The notes under the pieces: model-generated | What the model was told of the DNA's origin: nothing | The model's input: only the letters and a program-made list of their open reading frames with translations | The model's database searches: none | Program-made: the position numbers and the translations under genes | From: a virus | Direction: 5' to 3' (one strand) | DNA length: 33,357 bases | IMG/VR virus record: IMGVR_UViG_3300032282_001213 | Coordinates: 1-33,357 of that record | Part shown: one piece after another, positions 2,789-12,832 of the stretch | Layout: every line of letters begins with the position of its first letter | Position numbering within the stretch: position 1 is the stretch's first letter

Positions 2789-4813
2789 ATGGAACTACAA
2801 AGTATAGATTACAAAGATTGGTTCATAAACCAAAAACGTATACCTGATAAAGAGAGTGAGGAGTATAGAGCTTTCTTCGACTTTCATAAACAGCTATGTT
2901 TGGATGGTGCTATGATGAATGGGGTTTATATCAACCCCTTTTTGTATTGGCATCTAAACATCTGGCATACAGAAGTGGATGTTATAGATGATAGAGGACG
3001 TATCTCTCAGCAATATGCCAATCCCTATTTGCGTGATAATGAGTGGGTAGTGACGAATGAAATAGATAGAGCTCATATGGAGAAGCGTGGACTGGTTATC
3101 CTTGGAATCAGACGTTTTGCAAAGTCTGTTTTGGAGGCTAGTTATATTGCATGGGGAGCAACATTTGATGAGAACTCACAGAACATTATTGCTGGTTTGA
3201 ATGCTCCAGATATTAAGCTTATTACAGATAAGATTGATAAGGGGTTAAACTTCTTACCAGAAGCTTGGAGATGGCAAAGAATTGAAGACAACTGGAAGAA
3301 CCAAGTGACATTAGGAATTAAAACAAAAGGAGGAGAACGTATTCCATTCTCCCAGATCCTTGTCCGTAACTTGGATGAAGGTAATAATGAGGAAGCTATT
3401 GCTGGTACCAAACCACGTAAACTCATCATTGATGAGATTGGTAAGGGTAATTTCTTAAGAGGATTTCAAGCAGCTGTTCCTGGTTTCACTACACCATTTG
3501 GATGGGGATGTTCTCCTATCCTTACAGGTACAGGTGGTGATATGAAGAAGTTCATGGATGCTAAGAGCTTGATGTTTGATGTAGACAACTTTAACTTCCT
3601 AACATATAATAATGAGAAAGATGAGAAACGTGTTCATGGCCTTTTTATTTCGTATAAATATCGAATGGAGGCTAAGAAAGAAAGCACACTTGGTGAATTC
3701 TTAGAACAACCAGAAGGAAGTGATTTGTATAATGTAAAGATGCTAGTGAGTGATGATGAGAAAGCTAAGCAGATTACAGAAATAAACTTAGAAAGACTTA
3801 AGAAAGCAGGCGATAGAATTGCTTATTTAAAAGAGAAGATGTACTATCCATTAGAAGTGGATGACATCTTTTTGAACGAGGATACAAACATCTTCGATAT
3901 TGAAAGTGCTAAGCGTCAGAAAATCAGACTGCTTAATCAGGAAAGAACAGGTACACCTGTTATATTATTCCATGATGGAGAGAAGATTAGTCATGAGTTT
4001 ACAGACAAACAGCCCATTACAAACTTCCCTCTTAAAAATAGTGATTTAAAAGATGCTCCTATTGTAATATATGAATTCCCTATTGAGAACCCTCCTTATG
4101 GATTGTATGTTGCAGGAGTTGACCCTTATAGACAAGGACAATCTGCATATTCTACATCTCTAGGATCTGTATACATTTATAAACGTATGCACGATATTAC
4201 AGGTGAGAAGTATCAAGATATGTTCGTAGCTTCGTATTGTGCAAGACCTGATAAGAAGGAAACTTGGGAAGAACAGGCTAGACTACTTATTAAGTATTAC
4301 AATGCAAGAGCTCTTTGTGAAAATGATGAGATAAGCTTCATTGAATACATGAAGGCTAAAGGGGATGCACACTATTTAGAAAAGCAACCTGATTGGTTGA
4401 AAGAAGTGGTACCAGGATCTACAGTGAAACGTGATTATGGTGTTCACCGTTCTTCTCAAAAGATCATTGACTATCTACATAACTGTTTGAAGAAGTATAT
4501 GGAAGAAGTGGTATACAAAGAAAAGGATGATGATGGGAATGTTACAAAAGAGGTGTTAGGGATAAGTAAAATATTTGATCCTGTACTTCTTGAAGAAATC
4601 ATCCAGTATAATGATCAGGGTAACTTTGACCGTATTGTTGCAGCTGAGCTTGCTATTGCACAAGCTATGAAGATGGACCCTATCCTTGGAAAGGTGGGAT
4701 CATCAGGTGATGATAGAATTAAAGCTCTATTTAAACCAAACAAAAAGAATCAATTGTTCTCTGAATCAAGAGGATTATTTAATACAAGGAAAAGAAATAA
4801 ATTATTTTCATAA
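2789..4813 (+). CDS. terL: Terminase large subunit
   Basis: The packaging motor ATPase and nuclease, 674 aa, a normal length for crAss-like phages. The ATPase domain shows a Walker A variant GIRRFAKS at residues 106-113, Walker B LIIDE at 212-216 and the coupling motif TGTGGD at 246-251. The C-terminal RNase H-like nuclease shows GVDPY with catalytic Asp at about 445 and a second acidic site, CENDE, at 510-514. In Walker A the residue before Lys is Ala, where Gly is usual. It would bind the portal encoded immediately downstream and translocate DNA into the prohead. The stop overlaps the portal start by one base (TAATG), implying coupled translation. Confidence 0.93.
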   Translation: MELQSIDYKDWFINQKRIPDKESEEYRAFFDFHKQLCLDGAMMNGVYINPFLYWHLNIWHTEVDVIDDRGRISQQYANPYLRDNEWVVTNEIDRAHMEKRGLVILGIRRFAKSVLEASYIAWGATFDENSQNIIAGLNAPDIKLITDKIDKGLNFLPEAWRWQRIEDNWKNQVTLGIKTKGGERIPFSQILVRNLDEGNNEEAIAGTKPRKLIIDEIGKGNFLRGFQAAVPGFTTPFGWGCSPILTGTGGDMKKFMDAKSLMFDVDNFNFLTYNNEKDEKRVHGLFISYKYRMEAKKESTLGEFLEQPEGSDLYNVKMLVSDDEKAKQITEINLERLKKAGDRIAYLKEKMYYPLEVDDIFLNEDTNIFDIESAKRQKIRLLNQERTGTPVILFHDGEKISHEFTDKQPITNFPLKNSDLKDAPIVIYEFPIENPPYGLYVAGVDPYRQGQSAYSTSLGSVYIYKRMHDITGEKYQDMFVASYCARPDKKETWEEQARLLIKYYNARALCENDEISFIEYMKAKGDAHYLEKQPDWLKEVVPGSTVKRDYGVHRSSQKIIDYLHNCLKKYMEEVVYKEKDDDGNVTKEVLGISKIFDPVLLEEIIQYNDQGNFDRIVAAELAIAQAMKMDPILGKVGSSGDDRIKALFKPNKKNQLFSESRGLFNTRKRNKLFS

Positions 4814-7404
4814 TGGCTATAATTAGGTATACCAAAGATGCTACAATACGCTATGCGTATTTGAATATATTCCCTGATCAGTTTAAAACTGACAAAGAGA
4901 AGCAGGATGAAAGCTGGATTAAAAACACAATGGACTACTTTGCAAACAAAGCTTATGCTGAGTATGTAAAGAATAGAGATACATTTGTTAAGAACTATGA
5001 CTTGATAAAGGGTATTCTTCGTATGGAAGACTTCTATCAAGAACCACAAGTTAAATCTTTCACAGATATGCTAACAGCTGATCTTCAGCTTCCTGCATAT
5101 GTGAAGATGTATTCCATCATGACCACTCCTGTAAATGAGTTGGTTGGTGAGATAAGCAAGCGTCCTGATACATATAGAGTGAAGGCATTTGATGATGACA
5201 GCAAGTCTGAGGAACTAGAGTTTAAAACACAAATCCTTCAGGACTTTGTAGTGGGTAAAGCTAAACAAAAGATTGTTGAGCAAGCTGCATTTGCAGGTGA
5301 AGAACTTTCTGATGAGGATGTTCAGAAAATGACAATGGAGCAAGTACAAGATCAGATTGATAATTACACATCTGTAGCTGAGAAGTGGGCTAACCACGTA
5401 CTCACTTGTCAGAAAGCTGAGTTCAACTTGAAAGAAAAATCAGAAGACGCTTTCAGAGATATGCTCATCTCTGCTAGAGAATTCTATCACATCTATGAAG
5501 ACAATTCTAAACTTGGGTTCAACATCGAAGTGGCTAACCCAAAGAACACTTGGTTTCTTACAACTCCTGATCGTAAGTGGATCTCTGATCCTACAGGTAG
5601 AGCTCAGGGGGCTTATGCCGCTGGTACAGTGCAAGTTATGGAGCTTTCAGAAATCATCGAAAGCATTCCTGATCTTACAAAAGAAGAGATTGATCACTTG
5701 CGTTCATCTCTTCAAGACTATGGATTGATTAATGTACGTGAGTCAAATCTTGGTAACCCTAATGTTGCTCCTGGTATTGACTCAGTTACATATGATACAT
5801 ATGATCCTTTAGTGTTACAAACTAGAATGATCATTGAGTCTGAAATCAAACAGAACAATGATGGTCTTCAAGACTTCCTAGGACTTACATCAAACGTATC
5901 CTCTTTTGGATATAAATATGTTGTGGTGAGAGCCTATTGGATTTCTAAAAAGAAGATAGGAAAGCTTATCTACTTGGATGAAATGGGTAACGAACAGTCT
6001 GTTCTTGTAGATGAAACTTACAAGAGTGGAACTATTCCTACACAACAATCTATTGAATGGGGATGGATTAATGAATGGTATCAGGGTATTAAGATTGGTC
6101 CAGACATCTATCATATCAAACCATTCAAGCTTCTTAACTATTGTCCTATCATTGGTACAACATTTGAGGTGAAGAACACTGAGGCTAAGAGTCTTGTAGA
6201 CTTGATGAAGCCTTTCCAGGTGATATATAATGTATGTATGAATCAGCTTTACAAACTTCTTGAGAAAGAGGTGGGTAAGGTTTATTTGACATCCATCCGT
6301 CATATTCCTGTTCCTAAAGATGGTGATGCACAAGATGCATTAGATATCTGGGAAATGGAAGCACGTAATAGAGGTGTAGTGTTCATTGATGACTCTCCTG
6401 AGAATCTAAAGAGCCCATCTAGCTTCAATCAATTCAGAGATATTGATCTTACACGTACACAAGAGATTCAATCTCGTTATACACTAGCTCAACAAATCAA
6501 GAATGAATGTTGGGAACTTGTAGGTATGAGTAGACAAAGACTTGGATCTGTATCAGCTAGTGAATCTGCTACAGGTACAAATGCAGCTATTCAACAATCC
6601 TATTCTCAGACAGAACCTCTTTTTGTAGCTCATGAATATGTGATGGGTCAATTGTACCAAGCTATTATTGATGCAGCTCTATATGTAGAAAGCAAGAAGC
6701 CTCAGTCTACACTTTCTTATATCACTAATGAAGGAGAATCAGCATTTGTTCAGGTAAATGGATCTGATTTGAGATTCCGTGATTTGAAGGTGTTCTTGAC
6801 TAACAGACCTGAAGATAACCAAATGTTCCAGGAGATCAGAGGACTTTCTCAAGCTGTTATTCAAAATGGTGGTAGCTTGTATGACATCATTGAGCTTTAC
6901 AGCACTAAGTCTATCAGACAAATGAAGAAGGTATTTAAGGACCTTAAGGATAGACAAGAGCAAATGCAAGATCAACAAATGCAATTGCAACAGCAACAAC
7001 AACAAGCTCAGCAAGAACAAGCTCAGGCTCAGCTTCAACAACAAGCTGCTATGGCTGAACAAAAGATGGCTCACGATGATTACCAAAGAGAGCTTGATAG
7101 AATCAATAAGAAAGAGATTGCTATCATTTCAGCTACAGGATATGGTAATGTAGCAGCTGAGGATGTTAATGCAAATGCTGTTCCTGATGTACTAGAGATG
7201 AGTAGACTAGAAGGAGAACAAACAAAAGCATCTAGAGAATTCCAGATGAAGATGCAAGAACTCCAGTCAAAGAATAAACAGGCTGCTGAAAAGATAGCTC
7301 TTGAAAGAGAGAAGCTTCAGGTGGCTAGAGAAAACCAGGCTAATGACCTAGCTGTGGCTAAAGAGAATGCTAAAGGAAGAACAACCAAAAAACCTAAAAA
7401 ATAA
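4813..7404 (+). CDS. Portal protein, 863 aa
   Basis: It directly follows terminase and has the size and composition of crAss-like portals. It would form the dodecameric ring at one capsid vertex through which DNA enters and leaves. The N-terminal 700 residues are the portal core. From about residue 714 the protein becomes Gln-rich (an eight-Gln-scale run within a QMQLQQ-type stretch) and then a long charged coiled coil to the end (MKMQELQSKNKQAAEKIA), closing with a basic tail. The Gln-rich coiled coil may correspond to the barrel or crown part inside the head. Its stop overlaps the start of the SPFH gene (TAATG). Identification rests on position, length and remembered similarity, not on a catalytic motif. 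Confidence 0.85.
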   Translation: MAIIRYTKDATIRYAYLNIFPDQFKTDKEKQDESWIKNTMDYFANKAYAEYVKNRDTFVKNYDLIKGILRMEDFYQEPQVKSFTDMLTADLQLPAYVKMYSIMTTPVNELVGEISKRPDTYRVKAFDDDSKSEELEFKTQILQDFVVGKAKQKIVEQAAFAGEELSDEDVQKMTMEQVQDQIDNYTSVAEKWANHVLTCQKAEFNLKEKSEDAFRDMLISAREFYHIYEDNSKLGFNIEVANPKNTWFLTTPDRKWISDPTGRAQGAYAAGTVQVMELSEIIESIPDLTKEEIDHLRSSLQDYGLINVRESNLGNPNVAPGIDSVTYDTYDPLVLQTRMIIESEIKQNNDGLQDFLGLTSNVSSFGYKYVVVRAYWISKKKIGKLIYLDEMGNEQSVLVDETYKSGTIPTQQSIEWGWINEWYQGIKIGPDIYHIKPFKLLNYCPIIGTTFEVKNTEAKSLVDLMKPFQVIYNVCMNQLYKLLEKEVGKVYLTSIRHIPVPKDGDAQDALDIWEMEARNRGVVFIDDSPENLKSPSSFNQFRDIDLTRTQEIQSRYTLAQQIKNECWELVGMSRQRLGSVSASESATGTNAAIQQSYSQTEPLFVAHEYVMGQLYQAIIDAALYVESKKPQSTLSYITNEGESAFVQVNGSDLRFRDLKVFLTNRPEDNQMFQEIRGLSQAVIQNGGSLYDIIELYSTKSIRQMKKVFKDLKDRQEQMQDQQMQLQQQQQQAQQEQAQAQLQQQAAMAEQKMAHDDYQRELDRINKKEIAIISATGYGNVAAEDVNANAVPDVLEMSRLEGEQTKASREFQMKMQELQSKNKQAAEKIALEREKLQVARENQANDLAVAKENAKGRTTKKPKK

Positions 7405-7934: not shown

Positions 7935-7992
7935 AGTAAAAAATATTAATGCTATATTATCTAGAAAAAGGGACGATATAATGTTCTAACTC
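7935..7992. other. Spacer after the SPFH gene
   Basis: This A/T-rich spacer precedes the capsid-operon promoter. Only a weak AATAT/ATATT inverted repeat is visible and there is no convincing terminator, so readthrough from the terminase-portal operon into the capsid genes is likely. Confidence 0.4.
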
Positions 7993-8023
7993 TTTGTTAT
8001 TCAATAGTCTTTATATACTTTTA
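7993..8023 (+). promoter_or_regulatory. Bacteroidota-type promoter for scaffold and capsid genes
   Basis: TTTG at 7993-7996 and TACTTTTA at 8016-8023 are separated by 19 bases, a close match to the Bacteroidota consensus (last base A rather than G). Transcription would start about 25 bases before the scaffold ATG at 8056. Confidence 0.65.
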
Positions 8024-8055
8024 CATTTCATAAACCAAAAAAATAAGAACTACAT

Positions 8056-9357
8056 ATGGCTGAAAACTTGGAAACCCCCTCATTTGGGAACTTTAGTATT
8101 GAGAATACTATGGAAATGGGAATGGGTAGCTCTGAACTTTTGAATGATCTTATGGCTCCTGAAACAGCATCTGGTGATCCTGATGGGCTTGAAAAGATTG
8201 TTAAAGAAGTTGATGAACCTGCTCCTGCCCCAGCTGCTAAACCTAAAGCTGCACCTGCTAAAACAGTAGGAGATAAGCTTGCTGAATCCACTGCTTCTGA
8301 TAAGAAAGATGAAGAGACTGCTCAAGATCTTTTGAAAAACTTCCTTGGAGATGATAAGGAAGAAGAAGAGGAAGAAGAGGAAGATGATGCTACTAAACCT
8401 AAAGCAACTCCTAAAACTTCTGCTTCTAGTGCTAAAACTGAGGAAGAAGATGATGAAGAGAATGATGCTCCTGAAGTATCACGTTTTGCTGCTCTCTCTA
8501 ATGACCTATTTAAATTAGGGGTATTCACTAAAGAAGATGATGAAGAAGATGAAGACATCTCAACTCCTGAAGCTTTCCTGGAAAAATTCCAGGCTGAGAA
8601 AAAGAAAGGAGCTATTGAGGTAGTAAATAACTTCATTGGTCAATTTGGTGAAGACTACCAACAAGCATTTGATGCCATATTTGTTAAAGGCGTAAATCCT
8701 AAAGAGTACTTCGGTACTTATAACAACATAGTTAACTTTGCAGATCTTGATCTCTCTCAGGAGAATAATCAGATAGCAGTTATCAGACAAGCACTTACAG
8801 ATCAAGGTTTTGACACAGAAGACGTTGATACTGAGGTGGATAGACTGAAAAACTACGGTGATCTGGAAAGTGTTGCAACCAAACATCACAAAGTGTTGGT
8901 TAAGAAAGAAGCTGCAAAACTCCAACAAATGGAGCAAGAAGCTGAAAAACAACTGCAACAAAAAGCTTATATTAAGAACCAATATGTACAAAATGTACAA
9001 TCAGTTCTTCAAGACAAGCTAAAATCAAAGGAGTTTGATGGTATTCCTATCAACCCCAAACTGGCTGGCGAACTACAAGACTTCCTTTTAGTAGATAAGT
9101 ACAAAACTGCAACAGGTGAAACACTCACTGATTTTGACCGTACTATCCTAGAATTGAAGAGACCTGAGAACCATGCCACTAAGGTGAAGGTTGCTCTCCT
9201 CCTCAAAATCTTGGAAAAAGATCCTACTCTTTCTACCATCCAAAAGAATGGTGTCACAAAGAAATCAAATGAACTGTTTAGCGAAGTGGCAAGACAAGTG
9301 GAAAAAAGCAGTGTGAAAGGAAGTAAGTCTCAAAAGCCTTCTTCATGGTTTATTTAA
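8056..9357 (+). CDS. Scaffold-like acidic protein upstream of capsid, 433 aa
   Basis: Position immediately before the major capsid gene, high charge and low complexity suggest a capsid assembly scaffold or internal head protein. Residues 1-160 are disordered: Ala/Pro/Lys linkers (EPAPAPAAKPKAAPAK) and three Glu/Asp tracts, the first eight Glu followed by DD near residue 101. The middle and C-terminal parts (about 170-433) are helical with a coiled coil around 285-315 (KLQQMEQEAEKQLQQKA). The C-terminus is basic (KGSKSQKPSSWFI), the usual place for a scaffold's capsid-binding helix. The start at 8056 follows an AACTACAT leader also seen at 11136. No protease motif is visible. The GAA/GAT repeats could expand or contract by slippage. 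Confidence 0.7.
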   Translation: MAENLETPSFGNFSIENTMEMGMGSSELLNDLMAPETASGDPDGLEKIVKEVDEPAPAPAAKPKAAPAKTVGDKLAESTASDKKDEETAQDLLKNFLGDDKEEEEEEEEDDATKPKATPKTSASSAKTEEEDDEENDAPEVSRFAALSNDLFKLGVFTKEDDEEDEDISTPEAFLEKFQAEKKKGAIEVVNNFIGQFGEDYQQAFDAIFVKGVNPKEYFGTYNNIVNFADLDLSQENNQIAVIRQALTDQGFDTEDVDTEVDRLKNYGDLESVATKHHKVLVKKEAAKLQQMEQEAEKQLQQKAYIKNQYVQNVQSVLQDKLKSKEFDGIPINPKLAGELQDFLLVDKYKTATGETLTDFDRTILELKRPENHATKVKVALLLKILEKDPTLSTIQKNGVTKKSNELFSEVARQVEKSSVKGSKSQKPSSWFI

Positions 9358-9390: not shown

Positions 9391-10944
9391 ATGGCAATTC
9401 AAACAATCCCAGGTTTAACTGGTTTTACTTACGCTCGTGTTGCGTCTATGGACAAACGTGCAGTTGGTAAGTTGACCGATGCTAACCACCTGGAATCATT
9501 CCACTCAACTGAGCCTGCTGATTACGACAAGAAGATCATCTCTTTGTATACGCAGAGCTCTTTGTACAGCAATGACTTCCTTGACATGATCAACAAGAGC
9601 ACTCCTTATTACATCGATAATAATAGTGATGCTTGGAAATGGCAAGTACAAGTTCCGTACAAATTCCCTAAAATCATCAACGTTCCTGATAGTACGCTTG
9701 AATTAAGCAAGCCTGGTATCGATGGTCAAGAGTTTTCTCTTGTTTTGGACACTAACGAGTTCTCTAAGAATGCAATCATTTCTGTAGGTACTCGTCAATA
9801 TGGTCCTCGTTTCTATGTGATTAAAGATCCAGTTCCTTGGAACATGGGCTTCTTGTACACATTTACACTTGTGACTGACAACCCTACAGTTGACTATGTA
9901 AGCTCTACTTTCTTGCAAGTAGGTATTGAGCTTGAATTGGTTGATGCTGCAATTGGTGAATTCGATCAAGATCTTTTAGGTCTTCCTCGTTTGGGTGAGA
10001 AAATCACTATGTTTGAATCTTTGGGTTCTGCATATGGTTTCGAGCACAAAATCACTGAGTGGGCTGATGACAAAATGTTGCGTGATGCTTCTGGTAAGCC
10101 TCTTGACATTTTGGTGTATGCTCCTCAAAGACGTAACCAATTACCTCTTACACGTAATGACGTTAAATGGGAACCATTTATCGAGTTCTGGATGCGTAAG
10201 TCTATGCTTGAGTTGAAAGTTAAGCGTATGATTTGGAGCAAGCCTGGTACTGTTAAAACAAACGGTAGCAAGCAAGAACTTAAGCGTACTTCTGCTGGTG
10301 TTTATCACAGAATGCGTAATAACGGTAACCTTGTTCAATACAACCGTGGAGAATTCTCTGCTAACTTGATCCGTTCAGTGTTTGGAGACTTATTCTACAG
10401 ACGTGTGGATGTTAAAGATAGAAGAGTTAAGATGTACACTAATGAAGCTGGTTTTGACGTATTCCAACAAGCTTTGAAGACAGACGCTTTGAACAGTGGT
10501 TTGACTTTCATGGCTGATAGCGGAAATCGTTACATGCAAGGCGAAGGACAACACATCACTTACAACTTTGCATTCGATGCAATGGTTACACGTGAGACTG
10601 GTCGTGTTGAACTTATCCACTTGAAAGAACTTGACCTGCCTCAAACTAACCTAGAATTTGGACAGAACAAGAAGTCTACACCTGTATTCATGGTGTTTGA
10701 CGTATCTCCAATGTCTGATGGTTCTATGGTTAACAACATCCGTGAAGTTCGTATGAAGGGTGCACCTTCTATGACTTGGGGTTATATCGATGGAACTCGT
10801 CACCACTTAGGCTTTGCTAAGTCTCAGGGTATGAGCTCTGCGAACAAATTCCCAGGATATGAAATCTGGATGAAGGATCGTTGTGATGTATTCATTGAGG
10901 ACTTGTCTCGTACAGTCTTGATTGAGGAAATCCCACAATTCTAA
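9391..10944 (+). CDS. Major capsid protein, 517 aa
   Basis: Placed after the scaffold-like gene and of the length expected for an HK97-fold capsid protein of crAss-like phages. No single catalytic motif exists for this family; assignment comes from order, size, an SD-like site and strong codon bias. Arginine is written mostly CGT, whereas the tail genes mostly use AGA, and Asn/Phe/Ile codons often end in C, which fits a very highly expressed protein. The protein has few cysteines and mixed alpha/beta composition, starting AIQTIPGLTGFTYARVASMD and ending RTVLIEEIPQF. Transcription continues into a structured RNA region directly downstream. An alternative would be another abundant virion protein, but nothing else in the window fits capsid better. 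Confidence 0.85.
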   Translation: MAIQTIPGLTGFTYARVASMDKRAVGKLTDANHLESFHSTEPADYDKKIISLYTQSSLYSNDFLDMINKSTPYYIDNNSDAWKWQVQVPYKFPKIINVPDSTLELSKPGIDGQEFSLVLDTNEFSKNAIISVGTRQYGPRFYVIKDPVPWNMGFLYTFTLVTDNPTVDYVSSTFLQVGIELELVDAAIGEFDQDLLGLPRLGEKITMFESLGSAYGFEHKITEWADDKMLRDASGKPLDILVYAPQRRNQLPLTRNDVKWEPFIEFWMRKSMLELKVKRMIWSKPGTVKTNGSKQELKRTSAGVYHRMRNNGNLVQYNRGEFSANLIRSVFGDLFYRRVDVKDRRVKMYTNEAGFDVFQQALKTDALNSGLTFMADSGNRYMQGEGQHITYNFAFDAMVTRETGRVELIHLKELDLPQTNLEFGQNKKSTPVFMVFDVSPMSDGSMVNNIREVRMKGAPSMTWGYIDGTRHHLGFAKSQGMSSANKFPGYEIWMKDRCDVFIEDLSRTVLIEEIPQF

Positions 10945-10954
10945 TAACAAACCC

Positions 10955-11109
10955 CTAAGGATAATATCCTTAGACAAATATCGAGGAGAGAATGCCCCCC
11001 ACTTCAGAGTGGGGGAGCTCTTCTCACACAGAGTGTTGGATTGGAGGAATTCTCCAATAGCTCTCCCTTCGGTGGGAATCACTCTGCTAAAATAGGTACT
11101 AACAGTACC
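10955..11109 (+). ncRNA. Multi-stem structured RNA element after the capsid gene
   Basis: Almost the whole spacer pairs into stems. H1: CTAAGGAT/ATCCTTAG (10955-10962, 10966-10973). H2: outer GAGGAGAG/CTCTTCTC (10983-10990, 11018-11025, one G-U) around CCCCCACT-TCAG-AGTGGGGG (10996-11015). A three-way junction: closing stem CAGAGTG/CACTCTG (11029-11035, 11080-11086), arm ATTGGAG/CTCCAAT (11040-11046, 11052-11058) and arm TCCC/GGGA (11064-11067, 11074-11077). H4: GGTACT-AAC-AGTACC (11095-11109). A competing 9-bp pairing joins 11011-11019 to 11059-11067. No T-run follows H1 or H2. It could be a cis-regulatory leader for the 11136 gene, an mRNA-stabilising or processing element for capsid mRNA, or a free RNA. 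It matches no RNA family I can name. Confidence 0.65.
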
Positions 11110-11135
11110 AATAAACCAAATAAAATAAACTACAT

Positions 11136-12104
11136 ATGGGTAAGTTAGGTAAAATCTCTACTATTAAAAAAGAGTACAACAACTCTCAGTTGCAAACAAT
11201 GCAAGGTGGCCTATCGTTGAAAGGTCTAACTAGGATTCCTGGTACAGGGGTATTTAAATATCCTTACAAGGAATTGGATGGAAGATACAGAACAGGACTT
11301 GATCCTGAAGCTGCTTACATCCGTAGAATCTCAGATCCTCTTGAGAAAGAGCTTGAGATTGAACGTGTTACAAACTTGAAAGCAAAGCTTGAGTCTGAAT
11401 TAGGAGGAATTGATTTAGGACCTCGTTCTAAGTTTTGGAACTATGGACTTTCTACTTCTTCTGAAGATTCATTGCATGTGCAACCTGTTAAATTAATAGA
11501 TGGTGATAACTTTTTCGATCTTAATCTGCCTCTTCAGGAACTAGCATTCTCTTGGTTACGTGTTCACCCAACAATTGCTTCTAGCTATCAGGCTTGGGAG
11601 CGTGGTGAGTATCCTGCTGATATTCAATTCTACGTAGCTGATGATGAAATTGAAAATGCTGTGTTGTTCAAGAAGAAGCAACTTATCAACAAGGCTATTG
11701 CTAAGTTTGATGCAATGAGTCCTGAGAAGAAGAAAAAAGTTGCAAGATTGTTAGGTCTTCCTGTTACAGACTCTTCAAAAGAAGACTTTGTATATAATCA
11801 GGTGGATAACATTCTCAAACAAACTGAATTCAAGTCTGGCAAATATCAAGGATTGTCTACTGTAGAAGTATTCAACCGCTTTGCTGACATGAAGGAAAAC
11901 TTACTCCATATTAAGGACCTTGTTAAACAAGCTATTTCACACTCCATTTATAGAGTGAAACCTAATGGTAGAATCTATGAAGGGGAATATGAAGTGGCAA
12001 TTGATGAGGATGGACTGATTAAACATCTTGCTGATGATGACAACCAGGATGATTTGTTGACATTAGAAGGCAAGTTAAAAACTAAAAAACTCGCTTCTGT
12101 ATGA
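11136..12104 (+). CDS. Head or connector structural protein, 322 aa
   Basis: First gene after the capsid and structured spacer. I do not recognise a named fold, but position suggests a head-completion or capsid-associated protein. The N-terminal 60 residues are basic and Gly-rich (QGGLSLKGLTRIPGTGVFKY). The middle contains LPLQELAFSWLRVHPTIA and a helical region rich in Lys and Glu (about residues 180-215, SPEKKKKVARLLGLPVTD). The C-terminal part (IYRVKPNGRIYEGEYEVAI) looks beta-rich. The start at 11136 is preceded by AACTACAT, as at 8056. Its stop overlaps the next start (ATGA at 12101-12104), so the two products are probably made in linked amounts. Confidence 0.7.
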   Translation: MGKLGKISTIKKEYNNSQLQTMQGGLSLKGLTRIPGTGVFKYPYKELDGRYRTGLDPEAAYIRRISDPLEKELEIERVTNLKAKLESELGGIDLGPRSKFWNYGLSTSSEDSLHVQPVKLIDGDNFFDLNLPLQELAFSWLRVHPTIASSYQAWERGEYPADIQFYVADDEIENAVLFKKKQLINKAIAKFDAMSPEKKKKVARLLGLPVTDSSKEDFVYNQVDNILKQTEFKSGKYQGLSTVEVFNRFADMKENLLHIKDLVKQAISHSIYRVKPNGRIYEGEYEVAIDEDGLIKHLADDDNQDDLLTLEGKLKTKKLASV

Positions 12105-12832
12105 TATCCGTAGATAGTTTATTGTATAAAATCGACCAACGACTAAATAAACTATCAACCAATGATCATCAGCAAATCAACCTCGAAGATAAGATCTTGG
12201 CTCTTAATGAGGCACAGATCAAGCTGATTAAACAGAAGGTTGATGGTCTAAGCGTGATAAATGGTCTGGGTCTAGATGCTTTTAAAAAGCGTTATGAAGA
12301 CCTACAAAGTTTGGTGATAACTTATAATCACCAACCTCTTGAGCTACGTCTCAAGAATGTTGAACTAAATCAATGGTTTGCGAATCTACACTTGTTAGAT
12401 CCAAAGTATATGTTCTATATCGATAGTTATGTACTTGCTGACAAGGGAAGATGTAAAGATAGAAAGATCTGGATTAACAGAGACTTGGCTAAGCATGGTG
12501 ATCTTCAATTCATTCTGAATAACGATCATTACAAGCCTTCTTTCGAATACCAAGAAACTTTCAACTTTCTTTCATCTGATGAAATCTCAGTCTTTACAGA
12601 TGGTACATTTACCCCTACAAAGATTTATATTTCATACATGAGATACCCACAATACATTGATAAAACTGGATATGTTAGATTTGATGGAACCCCATCAATT
12701 GACCAAGACTGTGAACTTGAGACTTATCTGGAAGATGAACTTCTAGACTTAACAGTTCAAAACTTGGCAATGTACACTGAAAATGCTTCTGCTGTACAGT
12801 CTGCTCAGTTCAGAATTCAAACGAACGAATAA
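12101..12832 (+). CDS. Structural protein, possible connector/adaptor, 243 aa
   Basis: Translated from an ATGA overlap with the 322-residue gene. The N-terminal 70 residues are a helical hairpin or coiled coil (KILALNEAQIKLIKQKVDGL). The centre is beta-rich with aromatic residues (PKYMFYIDSYVLAD; SFEYQETFNFLSSDEISVF). The C-terminal helix contains LETYLEDELLDLTVQNLAMYTEN, a pattern common in head-tail adaptor proteins, where a helical bundle packs against the portal. That reading is tentative. No Cys cluster or catalytic motif is present. It sits between the capsid region and a Cys-bearing virion protein. Confidence 0.65.
   Translation: MISVDSLLYKIDQRLNKLSTNDHQQINLEDKILALNEAQIKLIKQKVDGLSVINGLGLDAFKKRYEDLQSLVITYNHQPLELRLKNVELNQWFANLHLLDPKYMFYIDSYVLADKGRCKDRKIWINRDLAKHGDLQFILNNDHYKPSFEYQETFNFLSSDEISVFTDGTFTPTKIYISYMRYPQYIDKTGYVRFDGTPSIDQDCELETYLEDELLDLTVQNLAMYTENASAVQSAQFRIQTNE

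Follow-up and report, generated by a model that had tools for sequence, protein, structure and literature searches.

A conserved tRNA-like RNA element downstream of the major capsid gene in crAss-like phages: a putative mRNA punctuation site

Introduction

In plant mitochondria, t-elements define intergenic cleavage sites for endonucleases, while RNase Z and PRORP excise the tRNAs (PMC8003010). RNase P is described as measuring a 12-bp distance from the T-loop to the 5' end, and as cleaving model substrates composed of an acceptor stem, a T-stem and a T-loop (PMC11143913). The same source lists several phage RNAs that are not tRNAs among the substrates of host RNase P: the M3 RNA, the C4 antisense RNA of P1/P7 and the T4 gene 32 mRNA (PMC11143913).

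The element analysed here is comparable to these systems in some respects. As with t-elements and tRNA punctuation, where tRNA-like folds or real tRNAs mark mRNA boundaries, a tRNA-like fold is found at an mRNA boundary, past the stop codon of the major capsid protein (MCP) gene and before the next gene. However, those systems are organellar, whereas the phage element belongs to a late operon, holds a fixed position relative to the capsid gene, is preceded by a hairpin, and would be cleaved only on the model proposed below. It is phage-borne and not a tRNA, like the M3, C4 and T4 gene 32 RNAs, and we propose that it is likewise a substrate of host RNase P. Two of its features, the location between the capsid gene and its downstream neighbour and the exchange with tRNAs, are not described for those RNAs in the accessible part of the source (PMC11143913), and it has no match in Rfam.

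The open-access literature searched, with incomplete coverage, gave no description of an element of this sort for Crassvirales and none of phages that use tRNA punctuation. The excess of capsid protein over neighbouring virion proteins encoded in one operon is usually credited to promoters, terminators, translation, or RNase III/E sites.

The capsid locus and its folded spacer

The window, meaning the whole stretch of 33,357 nucleotides that was analysed, is a fragment of a crAss-like phage, as indicated by Pfam matches to Crass_capsid, a P22-like portal and a crassvirus muzzle protein; terminase and further head genes were identified with PHROGs. The closest cultured relative of the MCP is that of Leptolyngbya phage Lbo-JY46, with 26% identity. 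The described hosts of Crassvirales are Bacteroidetes (PMC10136315). The promoter-like block upstream of the MCP gene (Table 1) would fit a putative Bacteroidetes host.

Table 1. Positions of the features discussed, numbered along the window
Feature	Position	Strand	Basis and remarks
Promoter-like block (TTAATGCTATATTAT ... CTCTTTG-N17-TATACTTTTAC) and AAACCAA...AACTACAT leader	7946..8055	+	conserved; precedes capsid-operon gene at 8056
Major capsid protein gene (MCP), 517 aa, crAss-like	9391..10944	+	Pfam PF23898 Crass_capsid, E 3.4e-28; PHROG major head protein, E 1.3e-32
Hairpin H1, 8 bp (10955-10962/10966-10973)	10955..10973	+	fold; variable, outside conserved core
Hairpin H2, conserved	10983..11025	+	fold, covariation; persists where a tRNA replaces the junction (L170, L188, L164)
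H2 lower stem, 8 bp	10983-10990/11018-11025	+	fold
H2 upper stem, 8 bp	10996-11003/11008-11015	+	fold
Three-way junction, proposed tRNA-like structure (TLS)	11029..11086	+	covariation, geometry
P1, acceptor-like junction closing stem, 7 bp	11029-11035/11080-11086	+	99.2% of cells paired; compensatory change in 4 of 7 pairs
Arm A, variable, 7 bp, in place of D and anticodon arms	11040-11046/11052-11058	+	fold, alignment; absent in L147
Arm B, T-arm-like hairpin, 4 bp, loop UUCGGU (11068-11073)	11064-11067/11074-11077	+	loop UUCRNU/UUURAU conserved in relatives
Tail and A-rich leader AAACCAA...AACTACAT ahead of next start codon	11087..11135	+	contains H4
Hairpin H4, window-specific (11095-11100/11104-11109)	11095..11109	+	fold
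Next gene, 322 aa, position of crAss001 gp33	11136..12104	+	gene order; PHROG 16383, unknown function

The folded element sits between the MCP stop codon and the gene starting at 11136. A preliminary description made from the sequence had pointed to 155 bases of this spacer (10955-11109) as densely packed with stems, including a 7-bp stem closing two arms, and folding bears this out: the minimum free energy is -63 kcal/mol, while shuffled sequences average -40.9 (sd 3.85; z -5.75), none of 200 being as low. In a sliding scan, the lowest 130-nt folding energy of the whole window belongs to the stretch covering the element. Comparable folding z-scores are nevertheless found at other sites of the window, for example at 3771 and 12676, and for this reason conservation, rather than stability, is the decisive evidence. 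These two stretches (3771-3900 and 12676-12805) lie within coding sequence and, with z near -5, match the element in strength.

The leader AAACCAA...AACTACAT precedes the gene at 8056, the gene at 11136 and a third gene that has no TLS-type element. Because of its occurrence at this third gene, the shared leader is no longer taken to prove that the 5' end is processed, and it is probably a translation-start feature. The gene at 8056 lies just upstream of the MCP gene; the promoter-like block in front of it (7946-8024 without the leader) is strongly conserved, and 7 of 12 longer records contain the CTCTTTG...TATACTTTTAC pattern, with a single occurrence in each genome.

A core conserved by compensatory changes

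The search for MCP relatives in IMG/VR yielded 80 loci, every one of them with such a spacer after the MCP gene, from which 54 distinct cores (corresponding to 10983-11086) were aligned and a consensus structure was derived with RNAalifold. Double compensatory changes were found in 21 of the 26 consensus pairs. Altogether, 96.7% of cells pair, versus 78.4% after shuffling (none of 500 shuffles reached the observed value) and 42-54% when partners were slid, and the covariation score is 0.521, versus 0.05-0.18 in controls. The preliminary description had placed a structured three-way-junction RNA between the capsid gene and its neighbour and had suggested looking for covariation in the capsid-downstream spacers of relatives; both the structure and the compensatory changes are confirmed by these values. 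In the same 80 relatives the MCP is 95-98% identical at the protein level, versus 76-87% for the next gene, the MCP of this clade being unusually conserved.

G-U cells (87) outnumber A-C cells (18), and therefore the + strand RNA is the working molecule; a DNA-level cruciform or a minus-strand RNA is disfavoured by this ratio. A covariance model found one + strand copy per locus, directly after the MCP gene, in all 80 of these first relatives, together with weaker minus-strand matches that overlap the + strand copy. It also matched 19 of 23 longer records, with one proper copy each at the post-MCP site. No further copies elsewhere in the genome were detected in the scans of the loci and of the 23 longer records, and one scan of genome contigs for host or prophage copies, with the next gene as query, revealed no relative.

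The multi-stem element originally described must be trimmed: H2 and the junction are conserved, but the outer hairpins (10955-10973 and 11095-11109) are not. H1 is variable or absent in relatives and H4 was not seen in their spacers, so that both were rejected as parts of the element. A competing 9-bp pairing (11011-11019 with 11059-11067), previously noted as a possible switch, is present in the window but complete in only 1 of 54 distinct relatives. As this alternative is not conserved and no Rfam riboswitch matches, the switch reading is unsupported. The suggested role as a packaging RNA found no support either, the curated Rfam model of the phi29 pRNA giving no match. The Rfam search, also proposed as a check, retrieved no known family at the gathering score and nothing relevant at permissive thresholds up to E 10; the element is a new RNA family, absent from Rfam. 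As judged from these alignments, the core is conserved after the MCP gene across a large environmental clade of crAss-like phages and is selected for pairing.

Resemblance of the junction to half of a tRNA

A profile of distant and near MCPs added loci with MCP identity down to 84%, and about 100 distinct spacers were compared. P1 is 7-8 bp long in 73 of 94 folds. The T-like arm is joined to the 3' strand of P1 by a linker of 0-1 nt in 72 of the 94 (two unpaired nucleotides in the window), and its stem has 3-5 bp, often 3-4, across relatives. The loop of this arm has 6 nt in 80 of 94 folds, mostly UUCGAU, UUCGGU, UUCAAU or UUCGCU, whereas arm A varies from 10 to 31 nt. The 3' half, measured from the loop to where the closing stem ends, has a modal length of 12 nt (46/102), followed by 13 and 11; these counts come from an automatic descriptor and are approximate, since it misplaces some stems, for example starting the P1 of the window inside H2 and catching the tRNAs in L170 and L188. 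A strict descriptor matches 74 of 110 real spacers, versus 0.4% of dinucleotide shuffles, a difference that measures consistency and not independent discovery, because the descriptor was drawn up with the family already in view. The junction therefore resembles the acceptor/T-arm half of a tRNA, with one variable arm in place of the D and anticodon arms.

The resemblance does not extend to a canonical cloverleaf. Neither the window nor any of 49 TLS-bearing loci yields a tRNA with ARAGORN, and the Rfam tRNA model does not match the element. In a canonical tRNA, the 3' strand of a 7-bp acceptor stem adjoins a T-stem of 5 bp that carries a 7-nt UUCRANN loop. The T-like loop has 6 nt instead of 7, and the equivalent of A58 is missing in about one third of relatives, including the window (UUCGGU). 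Neither CCA nor RCC follows the TLS. A tmRNA, with a tRNA-like domain and a tag ORF, is not reported by ARAGORN, and curated Rfam models of self-cleaving ribozymes gave no match. With RNase P model substrates, the element shares the minimal half-tRNA layout and the 12-nt measure, and one relative (L147) lacks arm A. The model substrates have a T-loop of 7 nt and end in a 3' RCC(A) (PMC11143913), in contrast with the 6-nt loop and the lack of CCA in the phage element.

tRNA genes and other insertions in the same spacer

At least seven distinct relatives (L164/L166, L165/L168, L170, L180/L182, L188, L198 and L218) carry real tRNA genes, as identified by ARAGORN, in the slot of the element, and all ARAGORN tRNA genes of the divergent loci fall within the spacer between the MCP gene and the next gene. 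In L180/L182, L198 and L218, the tRNA starts 0-3 nt past the element; in L170, L188 and L164/L166, the tRNA is present, the TLS is gone and H2 is retained. H2 is also retained in L201, with no TLS at all. Further variants are L147, where loss of arm A leaves a minihelix of P1 and the T-like arm, and L202, which has a D-arm-less tRNA-like fold with a loop of canonical length (UUCGACU) that scores below tRNA-model thresholds. Mapping onto the MCP tree requires a minimum of five changes of the tRNA state, L202 being treated as a tRNA, and a minimum of three of the TLS state. As far as sequence comparison reaches, this sharing or replacement of the slot is an evolutionary exchange and not a functional assay.

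Any late-operon spacer of a phage can acquire tRNA genes that play no part in processing. Some of the longer records carry tRNAs elsewhere too, so the post-MCP spacer is not their sole site. It could be argued that the spacer is a spot for tRNA-gene insertion and that the element is a tRNA in decay that has persisted by chance, since genes for tRNAs and homing endonucleases are found there repeatedly and L202 is intermediate in form. This explanation is very improbable, because the clade-wide compensatory changes reflect active selection for pairing, which decay does not provide.

The same variants bear on a protein-bound regulatory leader, in which a phage or host protein would bind the junction and its UUCRNU loop and tune translation of the downstream gene, in the manner of coat-protein operators. 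The conserved loop and junction do lie 26-50 nt ahead of the next start codon in most spacers. However, a tRNA gene or an HNH insertion may separate the element from that gene or take its place, which would hardly be expected of a start-site operator, and no structure sequesters the start codon. Such a leader is considered improbable.

Other insertions were also recorded. Small HNH-endonuclease-like ORFs are found at varying points of the spacer (L061, L063, L077, L217, L157, L155 and L202), some bringing their own copy of the AAACCAA...ACTACAT leader. In L165/L168 (about 4730-5220), the order is a tRNA 5' half that stops at the anticodon, an HNH-type ORF and a complete tRNA called as Thr(CGU), as if a homing gene had inserted into the anticodon loop of a tRNA. 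L164/L166 contain a small lipoprotein-like ORF, starting MKLILLIMVILGCTS, between H2 and the tRNA gene.

Terminators and outgroups

In crAss001, a terminator-like 13-bp hairpin with a T-run follows the MCP gene. The gene-order place is the same, between the MCP gene and the next gene, but in the present clade it is taken by H2 without a T-run and by the tRNA-like fold. The crAss001 hairpin makes it plausible that this spacer is where the capsid mRNA end is set, and the means by which the capsid message is ended here may differ between lineages. In the sister clade, the spacer of Lbo-JY46 folds no better than shuffles (z -0.58), its relatives have spacers of just 50-88 nt, and the terminator scan gave no + strand match in one of them (L140).

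An intrinsic terminator, defined as a GC hairpin followed by a U-run, does not account for the element. The lack of a terminator T-run reported in the preliminary description holds, as the scan found no + strand intrinsic terminator in 10900-11200 of the window, and by a rough pattern a T-run follows H2 in about 2 of 111 spacers. These results also weigh against a stable 3' mRNA structure without specific cleavage, in which H2 and the junction would block 3' exonucleases or partly terminate transcription, raising capsid over downstream mRNA, and the likeness to tRNA would be incidental. H2 is extremely stable and is kept everywhere, even without the junction (L170, L188 and L201), and the hairpin of crAss001 at the same place is in line with this explanation. 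Nevertheless, it leaves unexplained the conserved junction geometry, the UUCRNU loop and the sharing of the slot with tRNAs, and we regard it as rather unlikely.

Two adjacent structured parts, a hairpin and a junction, in a long late operon might also suggest an RNA that modifies RNA polymerase or causes antitermination in late transcription, like put of HK022. This option is very improbable, given that the element lies mid-operon after the capsid gene and away from the promoter, that replacement by tRNAs would not be anticipated, and that Rfam shows no match.

Proposed mechanism

The element is probably a cutting signal, because it resembles a tRNA half and because a real tRNA shares its place in relatives. 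We propose, with a probability of about 0.55, that the core (10983-11086) is a tRNA-mimic punctuation site in the late mRNA, cut by host tRNA-processing enzymes. Processing that separates the capsid mRNA from the downstream mRNA was among the roles put forward in the preliminary description; the comparative evidence favours it, through a tRNA mimicry that had been missed, the cleavage itself being what we infer.

According to this model, the late transcript would cross the MCP gene and the element, and H2 and the tRNA-like junction would fold. The junction would mimic the tRNA half recognised by the enzymes, with an acceptor-length stem, an adjacent T-arm, a UUC loop and a 12-nt 3' half. Host RNase P is predicted to cut the 5' side of the junction near 11028/11029, and the 3' side would be cut or trimmed near 11087, perhaps by RNase Z or some other nuclease. 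This would place the end of the capsid mRNA a few bases past the very stable H2 (10983-11025), which could serve as a 3' cap against 3' exonucleases, while the mRNA of the next gene would be released with a short A-rich leader. In this way, the capsid message would persist longer and become more abundant than the messages downstream, with no need for a terminator. In the real host, cleavage may depend on features beyond those seen in the element.

Implications for crAss-like phages

More broadly, it is tentatively suggested, at somewhat less than even odds, that crAss-like phages use a dedicated anticodon-free tRNA mimic, interchangeable in evolution with tRNA genes, to punctuate mRNA, with host tRNA-processing enzymes cutting the late operon after the capsid gene and so setting capsid output. 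The question is directly testable, as the relatives offer natural swap experiments (TLS, TLS plus tRNA, tRNA alone and minihelix) and the predicted cut sites are precise. If this proposal is true, tRNA punctuation, known from organelles, would extend to a bacterial virus, and with a conserved tRNA mimic at the capsid boundary, the activity of host RNase P and RNase Z would shape late gene output.
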